Origin: Hyphomicrobiales bacterium
GTDB lineage: Bacteria > Pseudomonadota > Alphaproteobacteria > Rhizobiales > Beijerinckiaceae
Reading direction: 5' to 3'
DNA: 63,253 nt
NCBI GenBank assembly: GCA_026400555.1
Contig: JAPLOW010000173.1
Span: 3,380 to 66,632, forward strand
The position numbers and the translations under genes are program-made. Below the pieces are notes generated by a model that saw nothing but the letters and a program-made list of their open reading frames with translations, was not told the origin of the DNA and did not search any database. Positions 22,926 through 48,931 of the stretch are shown piece by piece. Each line of letters opens with the position of its first letter. The first letter of the stretch is position 1.

Positions 22926-22942
22926 GCGGGTTCAAGGCCCGC
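22926..22942 (-). promoter_or_regulatory. Shared iron/Fe-S leader palindrome, copy before fbpA
   Basis: On the coding strand the sequence is GCGGGCCTTGAACCCGC: a 5-bp stem GCGGG/CCCGC around the 7-base loop CCTTGAA. It ends 17 nt before the fbpA ATG, just upstream of the ribosome site. Identical or near-identical copies lie at 42391-42407 (sufA) and 48915-48931 (sufB). Confidence 0.75.
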
Positions 22943-23029
22943 GATTCCGGGCTCGGCGTTTGACACCGTTCGCTTTGTTAGGCGCGCAGTCGCGGCGCGG
23001 TCAATAAAAAAGTGATATAAAACAATAAC

Positions 23030-23045
23030 TTGTAGAAATTCTAAA
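23030..23045. promoter_or_regulatory. AT-rich palindrome upstream of fbpA
   Basis: TAGAA-A-TTCTA sits in an AT-rich island (about 23005-23045) about 122 bases upstream of the fbpA ATG; with flanks it reads TTGTAGAAATTCTAAA. It resembles half-sites of Irr or Fur-family operators, but the spacing is shorter than in the Irr box. A role in iron control is likely from position, not proven. Confidence 0.4.
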
Positions 23046-23135
23046 CTGCGCGCGGCGCCGCGCCCAATTTTGAACCGGTCAAAGCACGGCGCAAAGGCAA
23101 GCCAGATCAGCCGCTTGCGCGCGATGTCGCAGGCA

Positions 23136-23164
23136 AACAGAAAGGCCGGGCAGGAGCCCGGCCT
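23136..23164 (-). terminator. Intrinsic terminator of the DUF2865 gene
   Basis: AGGCCGGGC (23143-23151) and GCCCGGCCT (23156-23164) form a 9-bp stem with loop AGGA. In the direction of the DUF2865 gene it is followed by TTTCTGTTT. It lies 25 bases beyond the stop codon. Confidence 0.85.
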
Positions 23165-23188
23165 CGTCGAGAATCATACAGCTGGTTG

Positions 23189-24340
23189 TCAGCGCCGGGA
23201 CAGATCGATGACACGGGCCGGCGTGGTGCGTGTGGTCGGTTGGCCATTGGCGTTCTCGAGGCGCACGCCCCCGCTCACAATGTCGACCGCGCGGTTGCCA
23301 GACAGGGCGTTGGCCTCGCGCACGCGTGTGATGCGCTGGACTTCGCGGCGCAGGCTCTCCTCGCGGCTGACCCCGACGACATGGTCGATCTGCTTGCGAG
23401 TCGACTCGGACAAGGCCGCCGATGAGCGGAAATCGCGGAAATTCGCGGCTGTGAACGGATAGCTGGTCGAGCCAATGAAGACCCGCGGCCGGCCATTGAC
23501 CATGACCGTGTCACCGGCCCGCAGCGTGAAATCTTTCAGCAGCGATACGGTGCGTGCCCCGTTGCGGGGGCGGGCGCAAGCCGGATCGATCGATGTCTGG
23601 TAGGCATAGGCCATGGGCAACGAGCGATAGGTCTTGCCGTCGCTGCCGACCGCCTCGTCAATCGTACCGGCGCCTGCGGCGACGCGCATCACCCGCGTCG
23701 GCACATCGGGGAAGATCGCGCGGCAGAGCGCCTCGTGGCCGACCAGCTCGGCGTTGTCGCGAATGTAGCCCAACGGGTACTGGTAGCCATCGCACAGCCG
23801 CACGCAGATCGAGCGCGGAACGTCAGCCGCCCCCGATACGGTGTCCAGCGCTGCGCTGACGGCGGTCTTGGCCTGTTGCTTGTTCCGGTCAGCGCGCCGC
23901 GTCCGGTCCTGCTCGTGTCCGGTCGGATGGAACGGGTTCAACCGGAAGTCAGGGAAGGCGACGCGGTTCTGTGGGGTTATGGCCGCGAGCGGCTGGAACA
24001 CAACGCTGCGCTGCGCGGCATAGCTGCTGGCCGAGGTATAGGCCTGGGCAGGGACAGCCTGTTCGCGGCGGCCCCGTCCATCGCTGCGAAAGGTCTCGTA
24101 CATGTCGAGGCGATCACTGGCCTGCACGAGGGAGACACCGAGCACTGCGCCGCCGACGCCTACCGTGACGCCCAGCGCTGCAAGTGCTGCCAGCTTCACC
24201 GCGCGGGAGCGGCTGGCGGCAACAGTAGCGTCCAGATAGCGGGCGCGGAGCGTCAGGAGGAGAGGGGTACAAACCTGCGGCTGGCTGGCAGGAACGGCAA
24301 GAAACGAGCTCTCGTCACGGACAGACCGCTCACGCAGCAT
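23189..24340 (-). CDS. DUF2865 domain protein
   Basis: The 383-residue protein has one membrane span (about 50-72) and a periplasmic domain with the DUF2865 pattern SICVRLCDGYQYPLGYI and the later YQTSIDPACARP, four cysteines that may form disulfides. The role of DUF2865 is unknown; it is largely restricted to Hyphomicrobiales. It has its own terminator and ATG 24340. It is not in an operon with fbpA or the RND pump genes. Confidence 0.8.
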   Translation of the reverse strand: MLRERSVRDESSFLAVPASQPQVCTPLLLTLRARYLDATVAASRSRAVKLAALAALGVTVGVGGAVLGVSLVQASDRLDMYETFRSDGRGRREQAVPAQAYTSASSYAAQRSVVFQPLAAITPQNRVAFPDFRLNPFHPTGHEQDRTRRADRNKQQAKTAVSAALDTVSGAADVPRSICVRLCDGYQYPLGYIRDNAELVGHEALCRAIFPDVPTRVMRVAAGAGTIDEAVGSDGKTYRSLPMAYAYQTSIDPACARPRNGARTVSLLKDFTLRAGDTVMVNGRPRVFIGSTSYPFTAANFRDFRSSAALSESTRKQIDHVVGVSREESLRREVQRITRVREANALSGNRAVDIVSGGVRLENANGQPTTRTTPARVIDLSRR

Positions 24341-24504
24341 AGTGTTACTCCAAACATAACAAATAACTCTGCCGCATTCCCTTCTTAGCCAGAAATTTCA
24401 GATGAGCCAATAGTTCTCGCTGTACTGGATTTAAACATTATTAATCTCTCGAACGGGCCATAGAGTCCGGTCTTGAGGTTTGAAGCGCCGATCGTACAGC
24501 CCTG

Positions 24505-27500
24505 CTACTCGGCCGGCTGCGGCGCCGGCTCGACGACGACATTTTCCTCACGGTTTCGCCCCGAGATCAGCGAGTCGACCTTGTCGAGATAAAAGTACAC
24601 GACCGGGGTGATGTAGAGTGTCAGCACTTGGGACAAGATCAGCCCGCCGACCACTGCCACGCCCAGGGGCTGTCGCAGTTCAGCACCGGCGCCGCTGCCC
24701 AGAGCGATCGGCAAGATGGCAAAGATGGCGGCGAAGCTTGTCATGATGATGGGACGAAAGCGGACCAGCGCCGCCTCGCGGATCGCGGTCATGGCATCGA
24801 CATTCTCGCTGCGCCGTTTCTCGATCGCGAAGTCGACCATCATGATGGCGTTCTTCTTGACGATGCCGACCAGCATCAGAATACCGATAATGGCAATGAC
24901 CGACAGGTCCATCCCGAACCACTGCAGCGCGAGCAGGGCGCCGAGGCCGGCCGAGGGCAGGCCAGACAGGATCGTGATCGGGTGGATGTAGCTCTCGTAC
25001 AGGATGCCGAGCACGATATAGATCACAAGCACCGCGGCGAGGATCAGAAGTCCCTGACCCTTGAGCGCGTCCTGGAAGAGCTGGGCAGAGCCCGAGAAAT
25101 TCGAGGTCATTGAGGCGGCCATGCCGACCTCGCGTTCCGCCACGCGCACCGCATCGACCGCCTCGCCGATCGCCACGCCAGGCGCCGTGTTGAAGGAGAA
25201 GGTCACGGCGGGTTGTTGCGAGATGCGGTTCACGGCCAGGGGCCCGACGGAGGGCACGATCTTGGCCACCGCCTCCAGCGGCACGTTCTGGCCTCCGGCT
25301 GTCCGCAGCAGCAGGCGCGACAGAACGGCCGGATCAAGCTGGAACGCCTTGTCGGCCTCCATGATGACCTGGTAGTCGTTCGATGCTGTGAAGATCGTGG
25401 CGATCTGGCGCTGACCGAAAGCGTTATAGAGCGTTTGCCGGATCTGGTCCGACGTGATCCCGAGGCTAGCCGCACGGTCGCGGTCAAGCTCGACAGCGAT
25501 CTGGGGATTGCGCAGCTGCAGGTCCAGCGAGACATCGCGCAACTGCGGCAGCCGCGACAGGCGCTCCTGCAGCCGCGGCGCGAGGTTGAACAGCGCTTCA
25601 AGATCCGGACCCGAGATGGAATACTGATAGGCAGCCCTAGAGGCCCGGCCCGCATTGAGGTTGATGTTCTGCACCGGCTGGAACACAGCGGTCAGACCCG
25701 GGACCGAGGACGATGCGCGTCTCAGGCGACCGATGATTTCCTGGGCGCTGTCACGCTCCTTGCGTGGCTTCAATGCGATGAACAGGAAGCCTGTATTAAC
25801 CGAGTTGAACCCGCCGATGTTAACCGTCATGTAGTCGACGGCGGGATCGGCGCGGATGATTTCCGCCAACCGCTGCACACGGGCGGACATGGCCTCGAAC
25901 GACGTGTCGGGCGGGCCTTCGGTCGCGCCCCGCAACAAGCCGGTGTCCTCGACCGGGAAGAAGCCCTTGGGAATGTCGATGTAAAGCTGCACGCTGACAT
26001 AGACCGTTGCCAGGGTGAGCGCGAGCACCAGCAGGCGCAGCTTGAGCACGATATCGAGCGACCAGCGGTAGGCGGCGAGGACAGCGTCAAACACCGGATC
26101 AACGATCCTGTCCATCAGCGTCTTCTTCCCGTGCTCGCCATGGTCCCCGCGCAGGAGCCGGGCGCACATCATCGGCGTCAGCGTCAGCGAGACGAAGCCG
26201 GAGACCAGGATCGCCGCCGAGATGGTCCCGGCGAACTCGCGGAAGACACGGCCGACCACCCCGCCCATCAGGAAAACCGGGATGAACACGGCCACCAGCG
26301 ACAGGGTGATGGAGACAACGGTGAAGGCAATCTCGCGCGAGCCGACCAGCGCGGCCTCGAAGGGCTTCTTGCCCATTTCGATGTGGCGGACGATATTTTC
26401 GAGCACCACGATCGCGTCATCGACCACCAGCCCGACGGCGAGGGTGAGAGCCAGCAGCGAAATGTTGTCGAGCGAATAGCCGAACGCGTACATCGCCGCG
26501 AAGGTGCCCATCAGCGAGATCGGCAGCGTGATCGTGGGGATCAGCGTCGCCGTCAGCCGCTTCAGGAACACGAAGATCACGACAATCACGCACAGTGTCG
26601 CGAGAACCAGCTTCTCCAGAACCTTGTCGACCGATTCCTTGATCGGCTGGGCGCGGTCATTCAGGACAGCGAGGTCGATCGAGGCCGGCAACTGGTCGCG
26701 GTAGCTCGGCAGGCGGTTGCGGATCTGTTGCACGACATCGACGGTGTTCGCGTCGGACTGGCGGAACACGGCGAGGATGATCGACCGCTGACCATTGTAC
26801 CAGCTGGCCGTCTGGTTGTTCTCGACCGAGTCGGCGACGGAGGCCACATCTTCGAGCTTGATCGGAATGCCGTTGCGCTGGGCGATGATCAGGCCGCCAT
26901 ATTCGGAGGCCTTTTCCAGCTGCCCCGTGGCGCCGAGCGTAAGACGCTGACGTTCGCCGGAAATTGTGCCAACGGGCGAATTGGAGTTGGCGGCCTGCAC
27001 TGCGGTGCGGACCTCGTTGAGCGTCAGGCCGCGCGCCGAAACCGCGTCTGGATTGACAAAAATGCGGACGGCATACTTCTGCGCGCCAAAGACGTTAACC
27101 TGAGCTACGCCGGTAATCTGCGAAATCTGCTGTTGCAGGATGGTTTCTGCGTACTCATTCAGGCTGGACAGCGGTTGCGTGCCCGATGTCAGCACGAGGA
27201 ACACCACCGGCTGGTCAGCCGGGTTGGCCTTTCTGAAGGATGGAGGGGCCGGAAGGTCCTGCGGCAAGCGGCGCGCGGCGGCGCTGAGGGCGGCCTGAAC
27301 ATCCAGTGCGGCGCCGTCGATGTTGCGGTCGAGATCGAACTGGAGCGTGATCGAGGTCGACCCCTGCTGCGACACCGAAGACATTGAGGCGATGCCCGCG
27401 ATCGAGGCCATCTCGCGCTCAAGCGGCGCTGCAACCGAGGTGGCCATCGTTTCCGGGCTCGCGCCGGGAAGGCGCACGTTCACATTGATCGTCGGAAAAT

Positions 27501-27621
27501 CGACCCGGGGCAGGGCTGCCACCGGCAATTGCCGGAACGCGAAGAAGCCGAACACCACAAATGACAGCATCATCAGCGTGGTCATCACGGGCCGGCGGAT
27601 GCAAAGTTCAGGAAGCGACAT
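24505..27621 (-). CDS. RND multidrug efflux permease (MdtB/MdtC/AcrB-like)
   Basis: This 1038-residue inner-membrane pump exports drugs or other amphiphiles with proton energy. It has the RND layout: first span after the LCIRRPVMTTLMML start, two large periplasmic loops and spans 2-6 and 8-12. The proton-relay Asp pair is in GLVVDDAIVVLENIVRH (span 4). PVAALPRVDFPTINV and DLDRNIDGAALDVQAA place it near MdtB/MdtC and other HAE1 pumps. ATG 27621 gives the canonical MSLPELCIRRPV start. It follows its adaptor gene by 66 bases; no outer-membrane channel gene is present. Confidence 0.93.
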   Translation of the reverse strand: MSLPELCIRRPVMTTLMMLSFVVFGFFAFRQLPVAALPRVDFPTINVNVRLPGASPETMATSVAAPLEREMASIAGIASMSSVSQQGSTSITLQFDLDRNIDGAALDVQAALSAAARRLPQDLPAPPSFRKANPADQPVVFLVLTSGTQPLSSLNEYAETILQQQISQITGVAQVNVFGAQKYAVRIFVNPDAVSARGLTLNEVRTAVQAANSNSPVGTISGERQRLTLGATGQLEKASEYGGLIIAQRNGIPIKLEDVASVADSVENNQTASWYNGQRSIILAVFRQSDANTVDVVQQIRNRLPSYRDQLPASIDLAVLNDRAQPIKESVDKVLEKLVLATLCVIVVIFVFLKRLTATLIPTITLPISLMGTFAAMYAFGYSLDNISLLALTLAVGLVVDDAIVVLENIVRHIEMGKKPFEAALVGSREIAFTVVSITLSLVAVFIPVFLMGGVVGRVFREFAGTISAAILVSGFVSLTLTPMMCARLLRGDHGEHGKKTLMDRIVDPVFDAVLAAYRWSLDIVLKLRLLVLALTLATVYVSVQLYIDIPKGFFPVEDTGLLRGATEGPPDTSFEAMSARVQRLAEIIRADPAVDYMTVNIGGFNSVNTGFLFIALKPRKERDSAQEIIGRLRRASSSVPGLTAVFQPVQNINLNAGRASRAAYQYSISGPDLEALFNLAPRLQERLSRLPQLRDVSLDLQLRNPQIAVELDRDRAASLGITSDQIRQTLYNAFGQRQIATIFTASNDYQVIMEADKAFQLDPAVLSRLLLRTAGGQNVPLEAVAKIVPSVGPLAVNRISQQPAVTFSFNTAPGVAIGEAVDAVRVAEREVGMAASMTSNFSGSAQLFQDALKGQGLLILAAVLVIYIVLGILYESYIHPITILSGLPSAGLGALLALQWFGMDLSVIAIIGILMLVGIVKKNAIMMVDFAIEKRRSENVDAMTAIREAALVRFRPIIMTSFAAIFAILPIALGSGAGAELRQPLGVAVVGGLILSQVLTLYITPVVYFYLDKVDSLISGRNREENVVVEPAPQPAE

Positions 27622-27687
27622 GGTTCCGTTCCTCTCGGCCACGAAGGGCCACGATTTCAAGCATCACATTCAATCGGACGGGGCGCA

Positions 27688-28980
27688 TCAGCCCTGCGTC
27701 GGCCGCTGCTGCTGCGCCGATGGCGCCCCCTGCGGCCGCTGTCCTCCGGGCTGACGCACAACGACGCGTGCGCCGTTGGTCAGCAGAAGCTGGCCGTCCG
27801 TGACGACCGTCTCGCCGCCGGACAGGCCGCTGGTGAGGACGACCTCACTGTCCATCGTCCGGTTGACCACAACGGGGCGCACGCGGGCCACATCGCCCTC
27901 CAGCACGAACACAAAGGTGCCGCTCTGGCTGGTCTGCACCGCTTCACGGGGCACCACCAGCGCGTCCTGTTCGGTCCTCAGGATGAGCCTGACGCTGCAC
28001 AACGCGCCTGGCCAGAGCAACTCGTCCGCATTGGTGAAGACCGCTCGGGCTGAAATGGTCCCGGTCGTTCCGTCCACCTGGTTTTCGACGAAGGCCACCC
28101 GCCCGGTCGCCGACTTTGGCAGTCCCTGCGGCGTTGCGATCACGGACGAGCTCTGGTCGCCGATCGAGCTCTTGAGATCGATCAGATAGCGCTGCGGCAC
28201 CGAAAAGGCGACGTAAATCGGGCTGGTCTGGTTGATCAGGGCCAGAACGGGCGAGCTGTCCCCGGTCTTGGCGATGTTGCCGGTCTTGAGGCCCGCAGGT
28301 CCGACACGCCCCGAGATCGGCGCGGCAACCGTGTAGTAGCTGAGCTGGACCTTGAGGTTATCGACGTTCGCCTCGCTGGCGCGAACAATCGCGCGCTGCG
28401 TCTCGGCGGCTGCCCTGGCCTGATCGAGACGCTGCTCGGACGCGAAGTCCCGCTTGGCCAGTTCCTGGGCGCGCTTGAAGTCCGCGTCGGCCGACACCGA
28501 CTGTGCCCGGTCGCGCGCCAGGTTCGCTTCGGCTTGCCGAATCTGCGCCTCGATCTGGCGCGAATCCAGCCTGAAAAGGACGTCGCCGCTCTTCACGGAC
28601 GAGCCATCCTCGAACGGGACTTCGAGGATCTGGCTTTCGACGCGGGCGCGGACGCTCACCGTCGCCATGGTCTGAACCGTGCCGAGCGCATCGAGACGGA
28701 CAGCCATTGGCTTGCGTTCCGCCTTGCCGGTCGTGACCGGAACCGGCGGCCGGGCCGGCGGCCCGGCGGAGGCCGTTTGCGGGCCGGATGCCGGGCGCGT
28801 CTCGCCGGGCTTGGCAGCTGGTTTGAGGAAGGGAAGCTGCGCAAGCAGCGGGGCGGTGTAAGGCGTCGCCAGCGAAAGCGGATAGGGAGCTGGCTGCCCC
28901 GTGTAGTGGTAATATCCCACCGCGCCGGCGCCAGCCACGACCACTGCGGCGACACCGCGCAAAATCCCCGAAAGTGCCAT
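27688..28980 (-). CDS. RND efflux periplasmic adaptor (membrane fusion protein)
   Basis: The 430-residue adaptor bridges the RND pump and an outer-membrane channel. It has an N-terminal anchor (about 6-22), a Pro-rich linker, the lipoyl half-motif (VRARVESQILEVPFEDGSSV and YYTVAAPISGRVG), a coiled-coil hairpin between them and beta-barrel and membrane-proximal domains. ATG 28980 is chosen so that the anchor is N-terminal (MALSGILRGVAAVVVAG). It is upstream of the pump gene in the same operon. The C-terminal tail is Gln/Pro-rich and likely disordered. Confidence 0.92.
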   Translation of the reverse strand: MALSGILRGVAAVVVAGAGAVGYYHYTGQPAPYPLSLATPYTAPLLAQLPFLKPAAKPGETRPASGPQTASAGPPARPPVPVTTGKAERKPMAVRLDALGTVQTMATVSVRARVESQILEVPFEDGSSVKSGDVLFRLDSRQIEAQIRQAEANLARDRAQSVSADADFKRAQELAKRDFASEQRLDQARAAAETQRAIVRASEANVDNLKVQLSYYTVAAPISGRVGPAGLKTGNIAKTGDSSPVLALINQTSPIYVAFSVPQRYLIDLKSSIGDQSSSVIATPQGLPKSATGRVAFVENQVDGTTGTISARAVFTNADELLWPGALCSVRLILRTEQDALVVPREAVQTSQSGTFVFVLEGDVARVRPVVVNRTMDSEVVLTSGLSGGETVVTDGQLLLTNGARVVVRQPGGQRPQGAPSAQQQRPTQG

Positions 28981-29143
28981 GAACAAGCCTTCTTGAACCA
29001 CCGGGATCCATGCCCGACAGGACATGCGTCCGCACGTTAAACTCTCATCACAAGCCGCCCGGTTGTGCTAGAGCCCTGCGGGTCCGAAAGCAACTGTCAT
29101 GCCCAAATGCGGTTCACACGAATATGTGAGGCCCTTTTCGCTC

Positions 29144-29635
29144 TCAGGCCGGGTGCTTCTCCATCAATTCGAAGACCAGCGCGGCGATCCAGCCATAGAT
29201 CATGTGGCCGATCAGGCTCATCAGCGACAGCAGCGGCACGTCGCGAAGAAGGAAGAACTGGCCAGCCAGCGGCGCCATCACACCGAGCGCGATGAAGTAG
29301 GTGGCCACACCCCAGATCCAGCCGTCCGCGGGCATGCCGAAACTCTTGATCATGCGCGTCACGCCCCAGTAGCCGATCGGGTAGAACAGGAAGCCGGTGA
29401 CGTAGTGGATGGCGTGGGCCAGAACATTGGAGATTGTCAGGCCGAACAGGTTGAAGAACAGGGACTTCACCAGTTCAGGCGGCTGGAGCGGAAACCCCGC
29501 CACCATGGCGGTCGGCACCGCTGAAAAGGCCTCCCAGAAACCAAGGCCAGCGCAGCCGCCGATGAACAGATGCCACACTGTGGTGGCTGAAGGCAGGGTA
29601 AAGGCGCGCGTTTCTGTCATGGGTGCGGTGGTCAT
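29144..29635 (-). CDS. Uncharacterised four-span membrane protein
   Basis: A 163-residue protein with about four hydrophobic helices (LFIGGCAGLGFWEAFSAVP; FFNLFGLTISNVLAHAIHYV; WGVATYFIALGVMAPLAGQF; LLSLMSLIGHMIYGWIAALV). Conserved-looking His, Gly and Trp residues in HYVTGFLFYPIGYWG and GHMIYGW suggest a known family, but I do not recognise it. It lies 45 bases downstream of the TTC38-like gene on the same strand and may be co-transcribed with it. Confidence 0.7.
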   Translation of the reverse strand: MTTAPMTETRAFTLPSATTVWHLFIGGCAGLGFWEAFSAVPTAMVAGFPLQPPELVKSLFFNLFGLTISNVLAHAIHYVTGFLFYPIGYWGVTRMIKSFGMPADGWIWGVATYFIALGVMAPLAGQFFLLRDVPLLSLMSLIGHMIYGWIAALVFELMEKHPA

Positions 29636-29679
29636 GGTGCTCTCGTCTGGTTGGATTGGTAAGGGTGAGTTGATGGTCG

Positions 29680-31077
29680 TCAGTGCATCGCGGCGGATGG
29701 CGCGAGGGCGATCAGGGCCGCGGCGAGACGCGTCGCGCTCCGCGGACGGCTGCTCTCAATCTGCGCGAGGCGCTGGGCCGCAAAGCGGTTATGGCCGTTC
29801 CGGGACCTCAGCCGGTCCTGCAGCAGTCCCTGGGCCAGGTCGTGGTCGCCACTGCGGACGGCACTCTCGATGAGCATCTGTTCGAACAGGTCTCGCTGCG
29901 CGTGGCTGCCGCCAAGCTGTTTCATGTGAGGGCGGGCTTTGAGCAGAAGGCGTGCGGCCTCTCTGAACCGCCGCTCGTGGAAGGCGCCGAGGGCTGCTCC
30001 GACAAGCGCGCCGACCGAGCGCGCGGTACGGCCGTCGGGGCTGCTGGCCGGGTCTGACGCCAGCCCGCGGAACAGCCCGTCTGCATCCCGTTCACGGCCG
30101 GCCCCGAGCAGCGCCAGCGCATAGTGCAGGTCAGCGAACACGAGGCACCGGTCCTCGATGCGGCGGGAAGCGAGATCGGCGAGTTCATCCCAGCGGGCTC
30201 CGACCGCGACCCCCGCAAGCTGGAGCCGTTGAAGCAGCGAAGCGGCATTGGCGATGTCACGGTAGTCGTCGGTTTTGTTGGCGCGGATGCTGTGGTCATA
30301 CAGGTCGAGCGCGGCCCCATGCTGGCCAAGCTCAAGGCAGAACAGCGCCTCATGCCAGGACAGGTGAAAGCCGAAGTTGTTGCAGTGGACCCAGTTCGAA
30401 CGCCCCTGCGCCAGCCAGCGTGCGCCCTCGGCGGCGCGGCCCGTCATTTCGAAGACATGCGCCACCGAATGCCGCGCCCAGGCATCCTGCGGCATCCGGT
30501 CGATGGCGGCGAGTCCGAGGGATTCAGCAAGCCCGTAATCGCCGTTCTCCTCATGGGCGAAGGCGAGGCAGCCCATGAGGTAGCCGCTGTGCAGCCGGTC
30601 GGTCCCATACAGCTGCAGATGTTTACGTGCCGAGGCCAGCATGCCCTTGCTGTCGCCCGACATGAAGAGGATGGCGTGAACCAGCTTGGCGGCCAGGACG
30701 TCTCCGTTGTCGAGGCTGATGGCCCGCTCAAGTTCAAGGGCGGCAAGGTCGGGGCGGCGATCCAGCCATAGCGACAGTGCGGCGGTGTAGCAACGCTCGC
30801 GCGGCGTGACCGGCGTGGCCATATCAGGGGTGCGCGCGGTGGCCAGAGCCGCCATGGCGTCGGCGGTCAGTTCGCGGCGTGCCAGCGTCAGCATCATCAA
30901 GCCCTTGGCTGCATGGCCCAGCGCGAAGGATGGGTCGGCGGCGAGCGCCTTGCCGAGGCAGACCGGAGCGGCGGCGCCATGGGCCAGCACATGCCCGATC
31001 GTCTCGTTCCAGTGGCCGAGCGCCACGGGCGAGGCGATGGTCGTTTCAGCGCCGCTGGCATCATGCAGAATGGTCAT
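29680..31077 (-). CDS. TTC38-like tetratricopeptide repeat protein
   Basis: The 465-residue protein is made of helix-turn-helix TPR-like repeats, e.g. FALGHAAKGLMML, YLMGCLAFAHEENGDYGLAE and ARHSVAHVFEMTGRAAEGAR. The motif WVHCNNFGFHLSWHEALFCLELG is typical of the TTC38 family, conserved from bacteria to animals but of unknown biochemical role. ATG 31077 follows a GGGGAGA ribosome site. It probably forms a unit with the small membrane protein gene downstream. Confidence 0.8.
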   Translation of the reverse strand: MTILHDASGAETTIASPVALGHWNETIGHVLAHGAAAPVCLGKALAADPSFALGHAAKGLMMLTLARRELTADAMAALATARTPDMATPVTPRERCYTAALSLWLDRRPDLAALELERAISLDNGDVLAAKLVHAILFMSGDSKGMLASARKHLQLYGTDRLHSGYLMGCLAFAHEENGDYGLAESLGLAAIDRMPQDAWARHSVAHVFEMTGRAAEGARWLAQGRSNWVHCNNFGFHLSWHEALFCLELGQHGAALDLYDHSIRANKTDDYRDIANAASLLQRLQLAGVAVGARWDELADLASRRIEDRCLVFADLHYALALLGAGRERDADGLFRGLASDPASSPDGRTARSVGALVGAALGAFHERRFREAARLLLKARPHMKQLGGSHAQRDLFEQMLIESAVRSGDHDLAQGLLQDRLRSRNGHNRFAAQRLAQIESSRPRSATRLAAALIALAPSAAMH

Positions 31078-31159
31078 CGCGGTTCTCCCCAAGCGGCGCG
31101 TTTGCGTCGTCTCATGAGGGAGTTCGACTGCGGCCTACGCCGCGTTACGGTCCGTCTGA

Positions 31160-37791: not shown

Positions 37792-37809
37792 TGCCCGGTT
37801 TGCCGGGCA
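37792..37809. terminator. Hairpin between the two PilZ genes
   Basis: TGCCCGG-TTTG-CCGGGCA is a 7-bp stem with a tetraloop ending 7 bases before the second PilZ start. It has no T run, so it may be a weak terminator or a translational hairpin over the ribosome-binding region. Confidence 0.5.
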
Positions 37810-37816
37810 CACGGCT

Positions 37817-38203: not shown

Positions 38204-38211
38204 GGAAGGCT

Positions 38212-39899: not shown

Positions 39900-39911
39900 C
39901 TTCGCCACAGC

Positions 39912-40640: not shown

Positions 40641-40803
40641 TCAGGGATGACCTTTGCTTTTGGTTCAGCACTCAACCTGCTTACGGCTGGCTGGACCAAC
40701 TGGTTCAACCCGGGCAGACATGATCACGGAGGACACCAAGCCGCCATCTTGTGGGTGCCCATTGCGGCTGGGGTTGGGCAAACAGATCGCCAGGGAGGCA
40801 TCA

Positions 40804-41943: not shown

Positions 41944-41966
41944 GCCGGGAACGGAGCGAAGTGTTG

Positions 41967-41991
41967 TCCCCGTCGTCGAGGGCGACGGGGA
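41967..41991 (-). terminator. Hairpin terminator downstream of sufA
   Basis: TCCCCGTCG (41967-41975) and CGACGGGGA (41983-41991) form a 9-bp stem with a 7-base loop, seven bases beyond the sufA stop. The T run is poor, so strength is uncertain. Confidence 0.6.
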
Positions 41992-41998
41992 TGGCGCC

Positions 41999-42373
41999 TC
42001 ACGCGATGGGCAATGGTGTCTTTTGCGGCGTGATCGCGACCGACTCGCCGCAGCCGCAGGCCGATGTCTGGTTCGGATTGTTGAACACGAAGGTCGATGA
42101 CAGCTTGTCGACCTTGAAGTCGAGCTCTGTCCCGATCAGGAACAGGACCGCTTTGCCATCCACGACCACCTTCGCGCCCTTGTCCTCGACCAGTTCGTCG
42201 CCCGGCTTGAGATCGCGTGCGACATCGAAGGTGTATTCCATGCCGGCGCAGCCGCCCTTCTTCACGCCAACGCGCAGGCCAAGTGCGCCTTCTGCCTTCG
42301 ACGCGATCTCGCTGACGCGCCGGGCGGCGGCATCAGTGAGGGAAATGACCTTGAGGCCCGGAATCGAGAACAT
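41999..42373 (-). CDS. sufA: Iron-sulfur cluster carrier SufA (A-type)
   Basis: The 124-residue A-type carrier receives Fe-S clusters from SufBCD and passes them to apoproteins. The three cysteine ligands are in KKGGCAGMEY and TSACGCGES. ATG 42373 is chosen because GAGGAGGAAGACACC precedes it as a strong ribosome site. In related species sufA follows sufT directly; here an inverted dehydrogenase gene separates them, so sufA must have its own promoter. The leader palindrome at 42391-42407 lies just upstream. Confidence 0.92.
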   Translation of the reverse strand: MFSIPGLKVISLTDAAARRVSEIASKAEGALGLRVGVKKGGCAGMEYTFDVARDLKPGDELVEDKGAKVVVDGKAVLFLIGTELDFKVDKLSSTFVFNNPNQTSACGCGESVAITPQKTPLPIA

Positions 42374-42390
42374 GGTGTCTTCCTCCTCGC

Positions 42391-42407
42391 GAGGGTTCAA
42401 GGCCCTG
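42391..42407 (-). promoter_or_regulatory. Shared iron/Fe-S leader palindrome, copy before sufA
   Basis: On the coding strand the core is AGGGCCTTGAACCCT: the same 13-mer GGGCCTTGAACCC as before fbpA and sufB. The next pair outward is A-T here instead of C-G in the other two copies. This compensating change keeps the dyad. The element ends 17 nt from the sufA ATG. Confidence 0.75.
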
Positions 42408-42508
42408 CGTTGCGGACAGATGCACCCTACATAGCCATTCGTTGCCAATTCGTCGAGAGCAGCTAGGGTCAGTCGTATCACAACGTGTTGTTGCGGAACG
42501 ATCCTGCC

Positions 42509-43555
42509 ATGCGCCTGTTTTCACCTGATGAACTTGCCGATGTCACCAGCCGCACCTTCGTTGCGGCCGGATGGCCGCAGGCTGACGCCGAGGAGGGTGC
42601 CCGCCACTGCGTGCTGGCAAACCTGTCGGGGCATGACAGCCACGGCGTCGGCATGCTGCCGCTTTACATCTCAGCCGTCCATGATGGCCTGCTCTCGCCC
42701 GCCAGCACGCCGGTGGACCGGATCAACGCCGCGCCGTTTCTGGTGATCGACGGGCAGGTGGCGCTTGGCCAGCCGACCGCGCGGCGTGCGATTGCCCGCG
42801 CCTGCGACATGGCGCTGGCCGGCGGCGTCGCCGTGCTGAACCTGATCGACGCGCACCATATTGGACGGATCGGTGATTACGCCGAACAGGCCGCTGCCGC
42901 CGGTCTGATCGCGATGTATTGGGTCAACGTCGCCGGACGCGTGCCGATCGTCGCGCCACATGGCGGGCGCGAGGCGCGCTGGGGCACAAATCCGCACGCC
43001 ATCGGCGTTCCTGACGGGCAGGGCAGGCCGCTCATCCTCGACTTCGCCACCAGCCGAATGGCCCATGGCAAGGCGCGCGTGGCCTTCAACAAGGGCGTTA
43101 CGGTGGCCGACGGCTTCCTGATTGATGCGGAGGGCAAAGCCTCGAATGACCCGGCCGTGGTGTTCCCGCCGGCGCCGATGGGAGCGCTGCTGCCCTTTGG
43201 CGACCACAAGGGGGCAGGAATCGCCCTGATCGCCGAGATCCTGTCTGCCGGTCTGACCGGCGGCGCGCTGATCAAGGACAAGCCCGTCAAAAGCTGGATC
43301 ATCAACAGCCTGTTCGGCATCCTGATTGATCCGGCGAAGCTGGAGCCTGACGCGGCGGCCCGCTCTGCCCGCATCGACGCCATCGCCAGCTATGTCCGCT
43401 CCGCCGCGCCGCGCGAGGGCTTCGACAAGGTGCGCGCGCCGGGCGACATCGAACGCGAGACGCGGATCAGTCGTCAGCAGAAAGGAATTCCCGTCGATGA
43501 CGAGACCTGGAGGCAGATTGTCGCCGCGGCGGACAGCGTCGGCGTCAAGGTCTGA
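42509..43555 (+). CDS. Malate/L-lactate dehydrogenase family oxidoreductase
   Basis: This 348-residue NAD(P)-dependent oxidoreductase is of the Ldh_2 (YlbC/AllD/YiaK) family, which reduces or oxidises 2-oxoacids such as malate, ureidoglycolate or 2,3-diketogulonate. Family marks are the catalytic-region GHDSHGVGMLPLYI (His near 44-47), AHHIGRIGDYAEQAA and GTNPHAIGVP. ATG 42509 is preferred to the GTG at 42485. It lies between sufT and sufA on the opposite strand, so it interrupts the usual suf order. The substrate cannot be told. Confidence 0.88.
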   Translation: MRLFSPDELADVTSRTFVAAGWPQADAEEGARHCVLANLSGHDSHGVGMLPLYISAVHDGLLSPASTPVDRINAAPFLVIDGQVALGQPTARRAIARACDMALAGGVAVLNLIDAHHIGRIGDYAEQAAAAGLIAMYWVNVAGRVPIVAPHGGREARWGTNPHAIGVPDGQGRPLILDFATSRMAHGKARVAFNKGVTVADGFLIDAEGKASNDPAVVFPPAPMGALLPFGDHKGAGIALIAEILSAGLTGGALIKDKPVKSWIINSLFGILIDPAKLEPDAAARSARIDAIASYVRSAAPREGFDKVRAPGDIERETRISRQQKGIPVDDETWRQIVAAADSVGVKV

Positions 43556-43573
43556 CAGCGCAGTCCCGGCCCG

Positions 43574-43954
43574 TCACCACATGTCGAGCGCCACGCGTGC
43601 CTCATCGGACATGCGCGACTGATCCCAGGGCGGATCGAAGGTCATGTTTACGGTGACACCGGAGACGCCCTGGACCGTGCCGACCGCATTCTCCACCCAG
43701 CCAGGCATTTCTCCGGCCACCGGGCAGCCCGGGGCTGTCAGCGTCATGTCGATGGTGACATGACGCTCGTCGGAGATGTCGACCCGGTAGATCAGCCCCA
43801 ACTCGTAGATGTCCGACGGGATTTCCGGGTCATAGACCGTCTTCAGTGCGGCGATGATGTCATCGGTCAGGCGGTCGATCTCGGCGGGCGCAAGCGTCGT
43901 GGCCGGCGCGATCGTCGGCGCATTGGGCTTCAACTCGGTCGCGGCATCGGTCAC
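43574..43954 (-). CDS. sufT: Fe-S assembly protein SufT (DUF59/MIP18 family)
   Basis: The 126-residue protein has an N-terminal Pro/Ala extension and a DUF59 domain: VYDPEIPSDIYELGLIY, then TLTAPGCPVAGEMP with the conserved Cys, and NMTFDPPWDQSRMSDEAR. SufT proteins help mature Fe-S clusters under high demand. The likely start is GTG 43954, ten bases after the sufS stop; the longer frame to 44041 runs into sufS. The gene ends the unbroken part of the suf operon. Confidence 0.88.
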   Translation of the reverse strand: MTDAATELKPNAPTIAPATTLAPAEIDRLTDDIIAALKTVYDPEIPSDIYELGLIYRVDISDERHVTIDMTLTAPGCPVAGEMPGWVENAVGTVQGVSGVTVNMTFDPPWDQSRMSDEARVALDMW

Positions 43955-43964
43955 GGCGTCATCC

Positions 43965-45203
43965 TCACGCAAACAGGCTCTCGGCTTTCGCGAGCGCCTC
44001 AGCCAGCTTATCGACTTCTTCAAGCGTGTTATAGAGGCCAAATGAGGCCCGGCACGTGGATGTGACCCCGAAGCGGGTCATCAGCGGCATGGTGCAGTGC
44101 GTTCCGGCGCGGACGGCCACGCCGGAGCGGTCAATCACAGTCGCCACATCATGGGCATGCGCGCCCGCCATCTCAAACGACACGATCGCCCCCTTGCTGG
44201 CGGCCTTGCCGATGATGCGGATCGAGTTCATCCGCCCGAGCCGCTCATGAGCGTAGTCGCGCAGGCGGTTCTCATGGGCAAGGATCTGATCGGAGCCAAG
44301 CGCCATCATATATTTCAGCGCCGCGCCCAGCCCGACAGCTTCAATGATGGCCGGGGTTCCGGCTTCGAAGCGGTGCGGCGGATCATTATAGGTCACCGTG
44401 TCGGTCGTGACGGTGACGATCATCTCGCCGCCGCCCTCAAACGGGGGCAGCTTCTCCAGCCATTCCTTACGACCCCAGACCGCGCCGATGCCGGTCGGCC
44501 CGTAAACCTTGTGGCCGGTGAAGACATAGAAGTCCGCGCCAAGTTTCTGCACATCCACAGGAAGATGGACGGCTCCCTGGCTGCCATCCACCACCAGCGG
44601 GACGCCGGCGGCGCGGGTCAGCTTCGCCACGTCGCTGATCGGCACGATGGTGCCCAGCGCATTCGACATGTGGGTCAGCGCCACGACCTTCGTCCGCGGC
44701 GTGATGAGTTTGGCGAATTCGTCGATCAGGAAATTGCCATCCTCGTCGACCGGCGCCCACTTGATCACCGCGCCATGCCGCTCGCGCCAGAAGTGCCAGG
44801 GCACGATGTTGGAATGGTGCTCCATGATCGACAGGAGAATTTCATCGCCCTCGCCGATGTTGAGGTGCCGGCCGAGGCAGGACGCCAGCATGTTGAGCCC
44901 GCCCGTGGACGAACGGCAGAACACGATCTCCTCGCTGCTCGCTGCGTTGAGGAACAGCCGTACGGCTTCGCGTGCATCCTCATAGGCTTCGGTCGAGGCG
45001 TTGGCGAGATAGTGCAGCCCGCGGTGGACGTTGGCATAGTCCTCGCTCATCAGCCGCGTCATCGCGTCCATGACCTGGCGCGGCTTCTGGGCTGATGCGC
45101 CATTGTCGAGATAGACCAGTGGCTTGCCGTAGACCTGCCTCGACAGGATCGGGAAGTCCGCGCGGATGGCCGTCAGATCATAGGGGTGCGTGATCGCGTT
45201 CAT
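43965..45203 (-). CDS. sufS: Cysteine desulfurase SufS
   Basis: The 412-residue PLP enzyme removes sulfur from cysteine for Fe-S assembly. The PLP lysine is in FTGHKVYGPTG and the persulfide-forming Cys in TSTCRASFGLYNT, the short-loop form typical of group II (SufS) enzymes that need a SufE or SufU partner. FSILSRQVYGKPLVYLDNGASAQ-like text at the start is standard for the family. The start overlaps the sufD stop, so they are coupled. Confidence 0.95.
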   Translation of the reverse strand: MNAITHPYDLTAIRADFPILSRQVYGKPLVYLDNGASAQKPRQVMDAMTRLMSEDYANVHRGLHYLANASTEAYEDAREAVRLFLNAASSEEIVFCRSSTGGLNMLASCLGRHLNIGEGDEILLSIMEHHSNIVPWHFWRERHGAVIKWAPVDEDGNFLIDEFAKLITPRTKVVALTHMSNALGTIVPISDVAKLTRAAGVPLVVDGSQGAVHLPVDVQKLGADFYVFTGHKVYGPTGIGAVWGRKEWLEKLPPFEGGGEMIVTVTTDTVTYNDPPHRFEAGTPAIIEAVGLGAALKYMMALGSDQILAHENRLRDYAHERLGRMNSIRIIGKAASKGAIVSFEMAGAHAHDVATVIDRSGVAVRAGTHCTMPLMTRFGVTSTCRASFGLYNTLEEVDKLAEALAKAESLFA

Positions 45204-46549
45204 GAGACCGTCGGAGCCTCCGCATTCAGCCGCGCCGCCCGCGCCTGCAGCCAGTCCCGCACCAGCGCATGCAGGATCTCGCGGATCGGCTCGTGGTCGA
45301 TGAAGTCGATCGATGCGCCGACGAAGCTCTCGATCATCAGCGCCTCGGCCTCGGCTTTCGAGATGCCGCGCGACATCAGATAGAACAAGAGCTCGTCATC
45401 GAGCGCACCGCAGGTCGCGCCATGGGCGCAGGCGACATCGTCGGCGAAGATTTCCAGCTCCGGCTTGTTGTACATCGCCGCACTTTCGGACAGCAGTACC
45501 GCGTTCGAAGCCATGCGGCCGTCGGTCTTCTGCGCATGCGGCTGCACGATGATCTTGCCCTGGAACACGCCCGAGGCTTCGTCATCAATGATGGTGCGGA
45601 ACAGTTCGCGGCTTTCGCCGCCCGGTTCTGCCGCATGTTCGACAACGAGCGTCGAGTCGGCATGCTGCGTGCCGCTGAGCAGCGTCGCCCCGTTGATCTG
45701 TGCGCGCGCATCGCCGCCCGAAAAGCGCACGAAGGCCTGATGCCGGGTAACGGCGCCTTGCAGCGCCACATTCACGGAGGTCAGGGACGTCTCGCTCCCG
45801 AGGTCGGCGGTAAGGGTGGACAGCGCGACCGCGCCCGCGCTGTTGAGGCCAAGGCGCACATGGCTCACGACAGCCTTGTCGCCGGCGATGATCTCGAGCG
45901 CCGTGTTAGGCTGGTGGGCGAGGGCACCCTGGCCCTCATGGCTTTCGACGAGCATCACATGCGAACCGGCTTCGGCCACCATCAGCACGCGCGCGGCGGT
46001 CGCCACGGCTGTCGCGCCACTTGTGACGAAGCGCAGGGCGATCGGCCCATCCACGGTCACACCTTCAGCCACATGAATGATCGCCCCATCGGTCATGAAG
46101 GCCGTGTTCAGCGAGAGTGCCAGATCCCCATGCACCAGCTTGAGCGCGCCGATCCGGCTCAGAAGCGGATGCCCGCCGGCCAGTGCCTTGGCGAGGGGCG
46201 TGATGCTGACGCCCGCGGGCAATGCGCCCGCAGTCGCCACATGGTGCCCGTTGACGAACGACAAGGTGACAACACCCTGTCCGGCCAAGGGGCTGTGGCC
46301 CTTTAGCGCCACGGTGATCTCGGCGTCATTCGGCCTCGCAGCCAGCGGCGCGGCTTCGCGCATCGCGGCGCGCAGGTCGGTGTATTTCCAGGCTTCGACG
46401 CGGCGCGTTGGCAGGCCGGCCGCAGCGAAAGCCGCAAAAGCGTTCTCTCGCAGGGCCGGCAAGCCGGGCAGGCTCGCCTTCAACGCCGGAAAGCGGTCGA
46501 TCAGCGCGCTCTCTGCGGCGCTGCGGATGGGAGTGATCTTCGCGCTCAT
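45200..46549 (-). CDS. sufD: Fe-S cluster assembly protein SufD
   Basis: SufD (449 residues) is the partner of SufB in the SufBC2D scaffold. Visible marks are RRVEAWKYTDLRAAM near the N-terminus, SGVFQGKIIVQPHAQKTDG and the end AHGATCGALDDELLFYLMSRG, with a conserved His in DVACAHGATCG that helps ligate iron at the SufB interface. ATG 46549 is chosen by family start; the frame to 46642 overlaps sufC. The sufC stop is seven bases upstream. Confidence 0.93.
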   Translation of the reverse strand: MSAKITPIRSAAESALIDRFPALKASLPGLPALRENAFAAFAAAGLPTRRVEAWKYTDLRAAMREAAPLAARPNDAEITVALKGHSPLAGQGVVTLSFVNGHHVATAGALPAGVSITPLAKALAGGHPLLSRIGALKLVHGDLALSLNTAFMTDGAIIHVAEGVTVDGPIALRFVTSGATAVATAARVLMVAEAGSHVMLVESHEGQGALAHQPNTALEIIAGDKAVVSHVRLGLNSAGAVALSTLTADLGSETSLTSVNVALQGAVTRHQAFVRFSGGDARAQINGATLLSGTQHADSTLVVEHAAEPGGESRELFRTIIDDEASGVFQGKIIVQPHAQKTDGRMASNAVLLSESAAMYNKPELEIFADDVACAHGATCGALDDELLFYLMSRGISKAEAEALMIESFVGASIDFIDHEPIREILHALVRDWLQARAARLNAEAPTVS

Positions 46550-46556
46550 GACCACC

Positions 46557-47309
46557 TCACGCCGCGCTCTGGTAGTCGCGGTAGCCATTGGCTTCGAGCT
46601 CCAGCGCCAGCTCGGGGCCGCCCGTCTTGACGATCTGGCCACGGCTCATCACGTGGACGGTGTCCGGCTTGATGTAGTCGAGAAGGCGCTGGTAGTGCGT
46701 GATGACGAGGAAGGCGTGCTCGGGGTCGCGGCGGGCGTTGACGCCTTCGGCCACGATCTTGAGCGCGTCGATGTCGAGCCCTGAATCGGTCTCATCCATG
46801 ATCGACATTTTGGGTTCGAGCAGGGTCATCTGCAGGATTTCCATGCGCTTCTTCTCCCCGCCGGAGAAGCCGACATTGAGCGGACGGCGCAGCATGTCCT
46901 TCGGAATGCCAAGCAAGTCGGCCGCCTTGTTCACGCGCTTGATGAAGTCCGGCGTGGTCAGTTCGGCCTCGCCGCGCTGCCTGCGCTGCGCATTCATGGC
47001 CGCTTTCAGAAAGGTCATGGTGGCGACGCCGGGAATCTCCATCGGATACTGGAAGGCGAGGAACAGACCTGCCGCCGCGCGCTCGTCGGGCGCCATCTCG
47101 AGGATGTTCACGCCGTCGAGCAGCACCTCGCCACCGGTCACCTCATAGTCCGGCTTGCCGGCGATGACATAGGACAGGGTCGATTTGCCAGACCCGTTCG
47201 GCCCCATGATGGCCGCGACCTCGCCCTTGGCGACCTTGAGGTTCAGGCCATTGAGAATGACCTTGTCTTCGTCAGCGATCTTGACGTGCAGGTTGCGAAT
47301 TTCGAGCAT
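46557..47309 (-). CDS. sufC: Fe-S cluster assembly ATPase SufC
   Basis: The 250-residue ATPase powers the SufBCD scaffold. Walker A is MGPNGSGKSTLSYV, the signature GFSGGEKKRMEILQM, Walker B SIMDETDSGLDIDAL and the switch His ITHYQRLLDYI. The SGLD variant after Walker B is specific to SufC. ATG 47309 fits the family. The 112-base gap from sufB holds a strong hairpin, unusual inside a suf operon. Confidence 0.96.
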   Translation of the reverse strand: MLEIRNLHVKIADEDKVILNGLNLKVAKGEVAAIMGPNGSGKSTLSYVIAGKPDYEVTGGEVLLDGVNILEMAPDERAAAGLFLAFQYPMEIPGVATMTFLKAAMNAQRRQRGEAELTTPDFIKRVNKAADLLGIPKDMLRRPLNVGFSGGEKKRMEILQMTLLEPKMSIMDETDSGLDIDALKIVAEGVNARRDPEHAFLVITHYQRLLDYIKPDTVHVMSRGQIVKTGGPELALELEANGYRDYQSAA

Positions 47310-47388
47310 TGTTGTTGTCCATTGTCTGCGGGCGCCTTGCGCAGCATGCTGCCGCGGTTCCGCGCGTGATTGATCCGGAAATCGTGGA

Positions 47389-47409
47389 TGGACGGGCCAG
47401 GCCCGTCCA
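47389..47409 (-). terminator. Intercistronic hairpin between sufB and sufC
   Basis: TGGACGGG-CCAGG-CCCGTCCA is an 8-bp perfect stem with a 5-base loop, 12 bases beyond the sufB stop. It has no T run. It may be an attenuator or an RNA-stabilising hairpin that sets the sufB to sufC ratio. Confidence 0.55.
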
Positions 47410-47421
47410 CGTCACCGAGAT

Positions 47422-48894
47422 TTAGCCGACCGAGCCTTCAAGGCTGATCGAAATGAGCTTCTGTGCTTCCACCGCAAACTCCATCGGCAGTTGCTGGAGC
47501 ACGTCTTTCACGAAGCCGTTGACGATGAGCGCGGTGGCGTCCTCGGCTGAGAGCCCGCGCTGCATGCAGTAGAACAGCTGGTCCTCGGAGATTTTCGAGG
47601 TGGTCGCCTCATGCTCGAAGGTGGCGGTCGAGGTCTTGCTCTCGATATAGGGCACGGTGTGGGCGCCGCACTGGTTGCCGATCAGCAACGAGTCGCAATT
47701 GGTGAAGTTGCGCGCGTTGGTTGCCTTGCGGTGGGCCGAGACCAGCCCGCGATAGGTGTTCTGCGAGCGGCCCGCCGAGATCCCCTTGGAGATGATGCGG
47801 CTGGTCGTGTTCTTGCCCAGGTGGATCATCTTGGTGCCGCTGTCGACCTGTTGCATGCCGTTCGAGACCGCGATCGAATAGAACTCGCCGCGCGAGCCGT
47901 CGCCGCGCAGGATGCAGGACGGGTACTTCCAGGTGATGGCCGAACCGGTCTCCACCTGCGTCCAAGAGATCTTGGAGTTCTTGCCCCGGCAGTCGCCGCG
48001 CTTGGTGACGAAATTGTAGATGCCGCCCTTGCCGTTGGCATCGCCCGGATACCAGTTCTGCACGGTGGAATACTTGATCTCGGCATCGTCCAGGGTGATC
48101 AGCTCGACCACGGCGGCGTGAAGCTGGTTCTCGTCGCGCTGCGGGGCTGTGCAGCCTTCGAGATAGCTCACATAGGAGCCTTCCTCGGCGATGATCAGCG
48201 TGCGCTCGAACTGGCCGGTGTTCTTCTCGTTGATCCGGAAATAGGTCGACAGCTCCATCGGGCAGCGAACGCCCTTGGGGATGTAGACGAACGAGCCATC
48301 GGTGAAGACGGCCGAGTTGAGCGTGGCGTAGTAGTTGTCGGTCACCGGCACGACCGTGCCGATGTACTTTCGCACCAGTTCGGGGTGTTCCTGCAGCGCG
48401 TCGGAGATCGAACAGAAGATCACGCCAGCCTTGGCAAGTTCGGCGCGGAAAGTTGTCACCACTGACACCGAGTCGAACACGGCATCGACCGCCACGCGGT
48501 TCTGCGGCTCGACTCCGGCCAGGATTTCCTGCTCGCGCAGCGGGATGCCGAGCTTCTTGTAGGCGTCGAGAATGGCAGGATCGACCTCGTCGAGCGACTT
48601 CGGCGCGCCATTCATCTTTGGCGCGGCGTAGTAGTAGATGTCCTGGAAGTCGATCTCGGGATAGTGCACCCGCGCCCAGGTTGGCTCGGTCATGGTCTTC
48701 CAGCGACGGAAGGCGTCAAGCCGCCACTCCAGCATCCAGGCCGGCTCGTTCTTGCGCGCCGAGATGTAGCGCACCGTGTCTTCGGTCAGGCCCTTGGCGG
48801 GCTTTTCCATCTCGACGTCGGTGATGAAGCCGTACTTGTATTCCGACACATCGATGGCTTTGACCTGATCGATGGTCTCCTGAACAGCAGGCAT
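47422..48894 (-). CDS. sufB: Fe-S cluster assembly scaffold SufB
   Basis: The 490-residue scaffold on which clusters are built. Marks include [55 protein letters not shown] and [17 protein letters not shown], with the conserved Cys in EGCTAP. ATG 48894 follows a GAGGAGACTGGAAC ribosome site. The gap to the preceding desulfurase gene is 60 bases and holds the leader palindrome at 48915-48931. Confidence 0.96.
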
Positions 48895-48914
48895 GTTCCA
48901 GTCTCCTCGCCGAT

Positions 48915-48931
48915 GCGGGTTCAAGGCCCGC
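48915..48931 (-). promoter_or_regulatory. Shared iron/Fe-S leader palindrome, copy before sufB
   Basis: The coding strand reads GCGGGCCTTGAACCCGC, identical over 17 bases to the copy before fbpA. It ends 20 nt from the sufB ATG. It lies inside the operon, between the first desulfurase gene and sufB, which favours an RNA-level or internal-promoter role. Confidence 0.75.

Follow-up and report, generated by a model that had tools for sequence, protein, structure and literature searches.

A CCUUGAA-loop leader hairpin before iron-uptake and iron-sulfur assembly genes of Hyphomicrobiales: a putative translational operator

Introduction

Iron control in rhizobia and their relatives has been described as transcriptional, via Irr, RirA and IscR. 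The Irr box (iron control element, ICE), a DNA palindrome TTTAGAA-N3-TTCTAAA near the promoter, marks iron and iron-sulfur (Fe-S) genes in these bacteria. In animals, the iron-responsive element (IRE) bound by IRP1/aconitase is a short leader hairpin near the start, common to several iron-metabolism mRNAs, and the leader-hairpin operators of the CsrA, ANTAR and ribosomal-protein types present one loop on differing stems in several operons, near the ribosome site. In addition, a HmuP/HemP-dependent motif lies in the 5' untranslated region of rhizobial haem-receptor mRNAs. Here we describe a hairpin with the 7-nt loop CCUUGAA in the leaders of fbpA, sufA and sufB within a 63,253-nt stretch of a Hyphomicrobiales genome (assembly GCA_026400555.1, contig JAPLOW010000173.1, positions 3,380 to 66,632; hereafter the window), and before further iron and Fe-S genes of the order.

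The element resembles each of these systems in part. As in the known leader-hairpin operators, compensatory stem changes, a fixed place at the ribosome footprint and several unlinked targets of one function were found, but the gene set is a different one and no Rfam 15 family matches here. An IRE identity was considered and rejected, since there is neither a CAGUGN hexaloop nor a bulged C; the alignments show a 7-nt CCTTGAA loop on an unbroken stem, in one bacterial order. The ICE marks the same kind of genes in the same bacteria, whereas the hairpin directly precedes the ribosome site and shows covariation; the Irr box (TTAGAA-N3-TTCTAA) is absent from the hairpin consensus and occurs separately. 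The HmuP/HemP motif is likewise a leader motif of iron-related mRNAs, but several hairpin genomes lack HemP, and none of the targets inspected was seen to be a haem receptor.

Rfam 15 gave no matches in the window at gathering scores, and at E values up to 1 six loci yielded two sub-threshold matches, both in one locus (L035) and neither at the element. Literature searches with sequence strings of the element returned no match, and no description of the hairpin was found in the literature searched, which included PMC3484140, PMC1273637, PMC2864571 and PMC2873474, most subscription journals lying outside the search. PMC2864571 lists an entry 'Rhizobiales-1' without an Rfam accession. From the sequences, the element thus looks like a known kind (leader hairpins with a common binder) whose sequence, lineage and gene set are new.

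Results

Three leader hairpins in the window

The 13-mer GGGCCTTGAACCC occurs exactly three times in the window (22928-22940, 42393-42405 and 48917-48929), always on the minus strand, which is the coding strand; none of 100 dinucleotide shuffles of the window held three copies. Each copy forms the upper part of a hairpin whose loop is CCUUGAA, followed by a ribosome site and ATG. The hairpins and their genes are listed below, with bit scores of the covariance model R1.

22924..22944, minus strand: fbpA leader hairpin, 7-bp stem UCGCGGG/CCCGCGA, loop CCUUGAA; drawn in the RNA fold; 31.3 bits, the top match in the window
21862..22908, minus strand: fbpA, periplasmic ferric-iron-binding protein; Pfam SBP_bac families, PDB iron-binding proteins
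42392..42406, minus strand: sufA leader hairpin, 4-bp stem AGGG/CCCU, loop CCUUGAA; drawn in the RNA fold; 21.1 bits
41999..42373, minus strand: sufA, A-type Fe-S carrier; TIGR01997 above the NCBIfam cut-off
48915..48931, minus strand: sufB leader hairpin, 5-bp stem GCGGG/CCCGC, loop CCUUGAA; 28.0 bits
47422..48894, minus strand: sufB, Fe-S assembly scaffold; TIGR01980 and NF008773 above the NCBIfam cut-off
48955..50205, minus strand: class-V aminotransferase upstream of the sufB hairpin; Aminotran_5, 7.5e-63; start codon as given by the open reading frame (ORF) tool

The original prediction, made from the letters alone, had reported these three copies and named the three genes. The window search returned the same positions and strand, and the gene names were borne out by the NCBIfam cut-offs for SufA and SufB and by PDB matches for FbpA, namely 'Extracellular solute-binding protein, family 1' (1.6e-122, first), 'Iron transport protein' (4.9e-116) and 'PERIPLASMIC IRON-BINDING PROTEIN' (7e-103). 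Its distance of 17-20 nt to the ATG holds when measured from the 17-mer (17, 17 and 20 nt for fbpA, sufA and sufB; 19, 19 and 22 nt from the 13-mer). The described change of the fourth sufA pair from C-G to A-T is real, although the fifth pair is broken (C opposite C), hence the 4-bp stem; the degenerate pattern proposed for searching, GGGNNTTGAANCCC, was off by one base and finds the three sites only with one mismatch.

The closest named SufB relative was that of Boseaceae bacterium BT-24-1 (88%), and we accordingly place the organism near Bosea within Hyphomicrobiales. The sufB hairpin sits in a 60-nt gap behind the class-V aminotransferase gene on the same strand, which we read from its sequence as of the cysteine-desulfurase type; the original prediction had put one copy inside an operon, and these two genes are a candidate for it. 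A tRNA search of the window found none, and the hairpin is not a tRNA T-arm. Across the assembly of this genome (3.79 Mb, 85% complete) exact copies of GGGCCTTGAACCC occur nowhere but at the three window sites, and two further sites differ at the fourth letter.

Covariation of the stem and conservation of the loop

In Hyphomicrobiales the element consists of a mostly GC stem of 4-7 bp with the 7-nt loop CCUUGAA, then a ribosome site and ATG. The least biased set for its analysis comprised 220 loci fetched by protein alone, with no motif used (L035-L114 and L296-L435), and included 271 leaders of sufB, sufA, grxD, nfuA, erpA and a few fnr genes, fbpA not being among them. Selection by loop, ribosome site and ATG gave 49 distinct sites, 46 of them with a stem. 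Over all 49, misses and the spurious-looking row L373 included, covariation was 0.586 against 0.150 in shuffles, which leave relatedness in, and 0 of 500 shuffles were as high. Pairing was found in 84.4% of cells (57.4% shuffled), doubly changed cells numbered 73 (29.0 shuffled), and all six stem pairs showed double changes; slid registers of the same alignment reached only 0.070-0.185.

This protein-fetched analysis repeated earlier ones because the wider set was not free of bias. A first alignment of 41 hairpins (36 distinct) had given 0.571 against 0.150 shuffled, its pairing percentage being biased by a choice made partly on pairing. The wider loop-near-start set held 72 sites, 70 of them with at least 3 of 5 Watson-Crick pairs, and a looser motif gave 91 sites, of which the 81 with a stem (the other 10 were dropped) showed 0.601 against 0.138 shuffled; many of these loci were fetched by motif or model, so some bias remains.

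The loop was more constant than the arms. Among the 46 stem-bearing protein-fetched sites, 35 had CCTTGAA and 6 CCTTGAC, and the same two loops accounted for 24 and 5 of the 51 distinct perfect hairpins with a 5-bp stem and 7-nt loop in these leaders. Orientation was fixed, with 49 distinct hairpins in the sense direction vs. 0 carrying the complementary loop (82 vs. 0 in the wider 396 leaders). The end of the 6-bp stem lay 13-21 nt before the ATG in 41/46 protein-fetched sites (range 10-25) and in 70/81 of the wider set (full range 9-31). Within the genome of the window the arms vary from target to target (fbpA CGCGGG, sufB GCGGG, sufA AGGG, nfuA GCCGG, grxD GCAGG) while the loop core CCTTGA is kept.

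These features bear on whether the element could be a DNA operator, that is, an inverted repeat downstream of the promoter through which an iron or Fe-S regulator blocks transcription. The arms are indeed inverted repeats, the order's iron regulators Irr, RirA and IscR bind DNA, and the wobble-pair counts given in the Discussion are compatible with such a role. The asymmetric centre, however, is what is conserved, the arms vary even among the targets of one genome, the orientation is 49 to 0 with a distance tied to the ATG, and for sufB the copy falls within the 60 nt that separate it from the preceding gene, which makes a DNA operator quite improbable. Action as RNA rather than DNA is favored by conservation of the loop instead of the arms, by the constant orientation, by arms that vary within a genome and by a placement set relative to the start codon.

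The loop could instead be the target of a small RNA, by kissing or seed contacts and perhaps aided by Hfq, like the iron small RNAs of the RyhB type. A stiff stem with a 7-nt loop lends itself to kissing contacts, and according to PMC3484140 an hfq mutant of Sinorhizobium meliloti has raised FbpA (SMc00784) and about nine-fold higher cellular iron, a phenotype that would be in keeping with this explanation if that fbpA carries the hairpin. Against it, positions 5-7 of the loop vary among the targets of a single genome, a variation that an invariant partner would not track: in the genome of the window grxD has CCTTGAC and the others CCTTGAA, and in Sinorhizobium kostiense sufB has CCTTGGA and sufA CCTTTAC. 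Moreover, the window's own genome holds five copies of the 13-mer when its fourth letter is left free, so that a perfect 13-nt complement could lie only at those sites, a 6-7 nt seed not having been searched. We therefore consider a small-RNA target unlikely.

Target genes

In the genome of the window, R1 gave 23 matches at E values up to 10, with fbpA, sufB, nfuA and grxD at ranks 1-4 and sufA at rank 9, adding nfuA and the monothiol-glutaredoxin gene grxD to the targets of the window. The other 18 matches, not each annotated, included a plus/minus repeat pair, and at none of them was a stem recognized that stood, together with a ribosome site, ahead of an iron gene. The grxD gene of this assembly is split over two contig ends (end of C75, start of C28).

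All 41 genomes of the genus had R1 matches (among the matches listed). Of 90 genus loci inspected (30 returned and 60 taken from the head of the list, with some sites read twice), 58 lie in front of sufB, sufA, grxD, nfuA, fbpA or a gene for a pyridine-nucleotide-disulphide oxidoreductase, the last of which appears from its sequence to be of the ferredoxin/flavodoxin-NADP reductase type. The remaining 32 were repeats with loop CCTTGAG resembling repetitive extragenic palindromic (REP) units, a recurrent CGCGGCCCTTGACGCCGCG without a start, and others. Among 41 genomes of 40 families, 32 had matches at E values up to 0.3, and 69 inspected loci (29 returned, 40 fetched) comprised 32 at known targets, erpA or imelysin-linked genes and 37 that were not. 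In the 80 loci obtained by a SufB protein search of genome contigs (1,237,247 nt in total), 39 of 127 CCTTGA hairpins were followed by a ribosome site and ATG; 38 of these were sufB or sufA leaders and one belonged to sufC (L072).

A survey blind to pairing required the loop, two C, GGAG and ATG and left the 5' arm free. In 61 genomes of the order it gave 95 rows at 94 places, compared with 10 for a reversed-pattern control. All 94 places were inspected, 19 of which came from earlier loci whose match had been picked on pairing by script. At least four of five inner pairs were present in 37 places, against a mean of 17.2 and a maximum of 30 in 2000 arm shuffles that drew on real arms too. These 37 comprised sufB (15), fbpA (9), sufA (3), grxD (3), nfuA (1), a cupredoxin with an FTR1 iron permease (1, by Pfam), imelysin-linked loci (4) and an rpoH-like gene (1), so that 34/37 lie at iron or Fe-S genes, 2/37 at an imelysin-linked ORF and 1/37 at the rpoH-like gene. 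The remaining 57 places had weaker stems and mostly unrelated genes or none.

The original prediction had asked for a genome-wide search and for covariation in relatives. Stem-bearing sites before starts were found almost solely at iron and Fe-S genes and compensatory change was seen at every stem pair, and the outcomes it had named as refuting, occurrence before many unrelated genes or lack of conservation in sister species, did not occur. The RNA stem-loop or operator that was proposed to connect iron uptake with Fe-S assembly is thus supported by covariation and gene set, and the set extends beyond the three genes first named to nfuA and grxD, and sometimes to erpA, the flavin-type reductase, FTR1-cupredoxin and imelysin-linked loci. 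No regulator gene was recognized behind the stem-bearing sites inspected.

This gene set also bears on the possibility of a gene-specific mRNA stabilizer or translation enhancer acting without a dedicated binder. A short GC-rich stem close to the ribosome site can shield an mRNA or tune initiation; a structural role alone, however, would need no CCUUGAA loop, would not concentrate at iron and Fe-S genes, and would not trade places with the Irr box before nfuA (see below), and we give this explanation a low probability.

Regarding the imelysin-linked loci, imelysin lies downstream in two of the four (L224 and L452), and the other two (L438 and L453) share only the conserved ORF that precedes imelysin (E 2e-30 and 2e-7), no imelysin being present in the stretches examined. 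Two further imelysin loci (L496 and L499) had three pairs only. The layout in L224, L438, L452, L453 and L499 is a hairpin (half of one in L499) with ribosome site, a short variable ORF and then the conserved ORF (GFRxW...), which has no Pfam family; an imelysin gene comes next in L224, L452 and L499. The rpoH-like genes of L483 (5 pairs) and, outside the order, L535 (4 pairs) have a CCTTGA hairpin-like leader, perhaps by chance or as a separate element.

Dispersed repeats and other look-alikes

A dispersed palindromic repeat, GCCCGGCCTTGAGCCGGGC, with loop CCTTGAG, resembles the leader hairpin and is a confounder, possibly of a REP family. Its copies often form close plus/minus pairs, as at G000:C39:8085-8174 in the genome of the window (L168, L169) and at many places in four other genomes (G190, G195, G215, G218). 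The leader element might on this account be a fossil of such a repeat, inserted by chance before these genes, given that the REP-like units resemble it and are frequent in some genomes. Yet the repeats carry CCTTGAG, a loop found at just 1/46 stem-bearing protein-fetched leader sites, and the leader copies all lie in the gene's sense at a common place before the start; an origin of this sort is very improbable. A perfect hairpin CGCGGC-CCTTGAC-GCCGCG with no start behind it was also seen in at least seven genomes of the genus (L261, L266, L271, L273, L276, L283, L290).

Other identities were set aside. The count of GGGNCTTGAACCC in 131/149 family genomes was inflated by the ACTT variant and was unused as evidence, as was the look-alike variant GGGACTTGAACCC, the complement of a tRNA T-arm. 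Mimicry of an anticodon arm, suggested by the 5-bp stem and the 7-nt loop with UUG/UUU/UUC where the anticodon would be, was dropped because position 33 usually holds C and some loops lack a purine at position 37 (CCTTGTA in L399). By eye, the loop showed no consistent complementarity to the ribosome site.

Taxonomic distribution

Within the 80 suf loci, presence was scored by a loop CYTTKR with at least 4/5 inner pairs, G-U allowed. The best-matching loci (L035-L083, mainly Hyphomicrobiales) had the hairpin before sufB in 31/49 and before sufA in 14/31, one sufA row (L081) being judged false by eye. In L084-L114 (Caulobacter, Rhodobacteraceae, Acetobacteraceae and others) it was found before 0/31 sufB and 0/18 sufA genes; as sampled, the hairpin is confined to Hyphomicrobiales. 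Genera with the hairpin include Bradyrhizobium, Mesorhizobium, Sinorhizobium, Rhizobium, Methylobacterium, Methylosinus, Devosia, Pleomorphomonas and Martelella. One strain (that of L058) has a second sufB without it (L067).

HemP was rejected as an obligate partner, being present in only 12/46 genomes; it is absent from the genome of the window (85% complete) and from G193, G210, G222, G225, G189 and G202, all of which have the sufB hairpin. A loose association remains, with the sufB hairpin in 10 of the 12 HemP genomes (L399 with a variant loop).

Irr boxes in nfuA leaders

The leaders of nfuA from 30 genomes, one per family (L329-L355), were searched for an Irr-type box at a threshold of at least 10/12 positions of the ICE consensus, and 19/30 had one compared with 0.25 expected. 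By script, the box was present in 2/8 leaders with the hairpin and in 17/22 without it (Fisher p 0.028); after a post hoc correction moving a false hairpin (L335), the counts were 1/7 and 18/23 (p 0.0045). In this gene hairpin and box thus appear to tend to replace each other, a pattern that hints at an exchange of one mode of regulation, DNA box or RNA hairpin, for the other. The two coexist in other leaders, with Irr-type boxes in 7/32 sufB and 9/13 fbpA hairpin leaders; for fbpA these loci had been obtained through the motif.

Discussion

The element and its gene set are well supported. How it acts is suggested by its position and conservation, and the reading that we prefer, with a probability of about 0.62, is that of a translational operator controlling these mRNAs and read by a trans-acting iron- or Fe-S-responsive factor, probably a protein. 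The rigid stem would present the 7-nt loop touching or inside the footprint of the initiating ribosome, and the factor would read the loop on its stem. Once bound, it could block the 30S subunit sterically or alter mRNA stability, its binding being set by iron or Fe-S status. As to the sign of control, we lean slightly toward repression when iron is sufficient.

Several observations weigh against this reading. The folding energies of the three window leaders were ordinary relative to shuffles (z -0.44, -0.20 and -1.69), and the hairpin was drawn in the RNA folds of the fbpA and sufA leaders, while the minimum-energy fold of the longer sufB leader lacks it. Six pairs with a double change were also reached in 50/500 shuffles of the 49-site set and in 111/500 shuffles of the wider set. 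Wobble-pair strand counts did not separate RNA from DNA, with 13 G-U vs. 7 A-C at pairs 1-5 (p = 0.26) and 13 vs. 9 in the wider set (p = 0.52). One paired survey site precedes an rpoH-like gene (L483), and a look-alike repeat present in several genomes, CCCGGCCTTGAGCCGGG, has one copy with ribosome site and ATG before a TRAP-transporter-like gene (L280). The survey pattern gave 42 rows against 3 for the control in 74 genomes of the class outside the family (of 76); since the same excess is seen outside the order, exceeding the reversed control cannot count as evidence on its own. Among 28 of these 42 rows inspected, one had four pairs (the rpoH-like L535) and no iron gene was recognized.

Distribution is a further point of this kind. 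Among 46 genomes, 45 with SufB and 43 with readable leaders, the sufB hairpin was present in about 20/43 (20 flagged by script, less the AT-rich L419 and L420 to give 18, including L405 with a variant loop, plus the unflagged variant loops of L391 and L399). By script, it was found before grxD in 9/30 (L296 cut at a contig end, L298 a loop variant) and before nfuA in 8/30 (L335 false, L344 weak); for erpA the count was 2/30. Given these patchy counts, the element comes and goes within the order.

In the sufB leader (window 48880-48954), codons 2-4 pair with the hairpin's 5' arm in the minimum-energy fold; such alternative pairing might form an on/off pair of structures, a switch.

A more specific form of the translational operator, possible but which we hold at clearly less than even odds, would be a bacterial counterpart of IRE/IRP. 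One Fe-S- or iron-sensing RNA-binding protein, for example of the aconitase type or another Fe-S protein, would set translation via the CCUUGAA hairpin jointly for iron uptake (FbpA, FTR1, imelysin-linked) and Fe-S assembly and trafficking (SufB, SufA, NfuA, Grx4, ErpA), swapping with the Irr box gene by gene.

If the translational operator is real, it would be a post-transcriptional layer joining iron uptake to Fe-S assembly, in bacteria for which Fe-S demand matters greatly (nitrogen fixation, methylotrophy). The occurrence of the hairpin before sufB or sufA in Bradyrhizobium, Mesorhizobium, Sinorhizobium, Rhizobium and Methylobacterium makes this readily testable, and the hairpin itself offers a bait for finding its binder.

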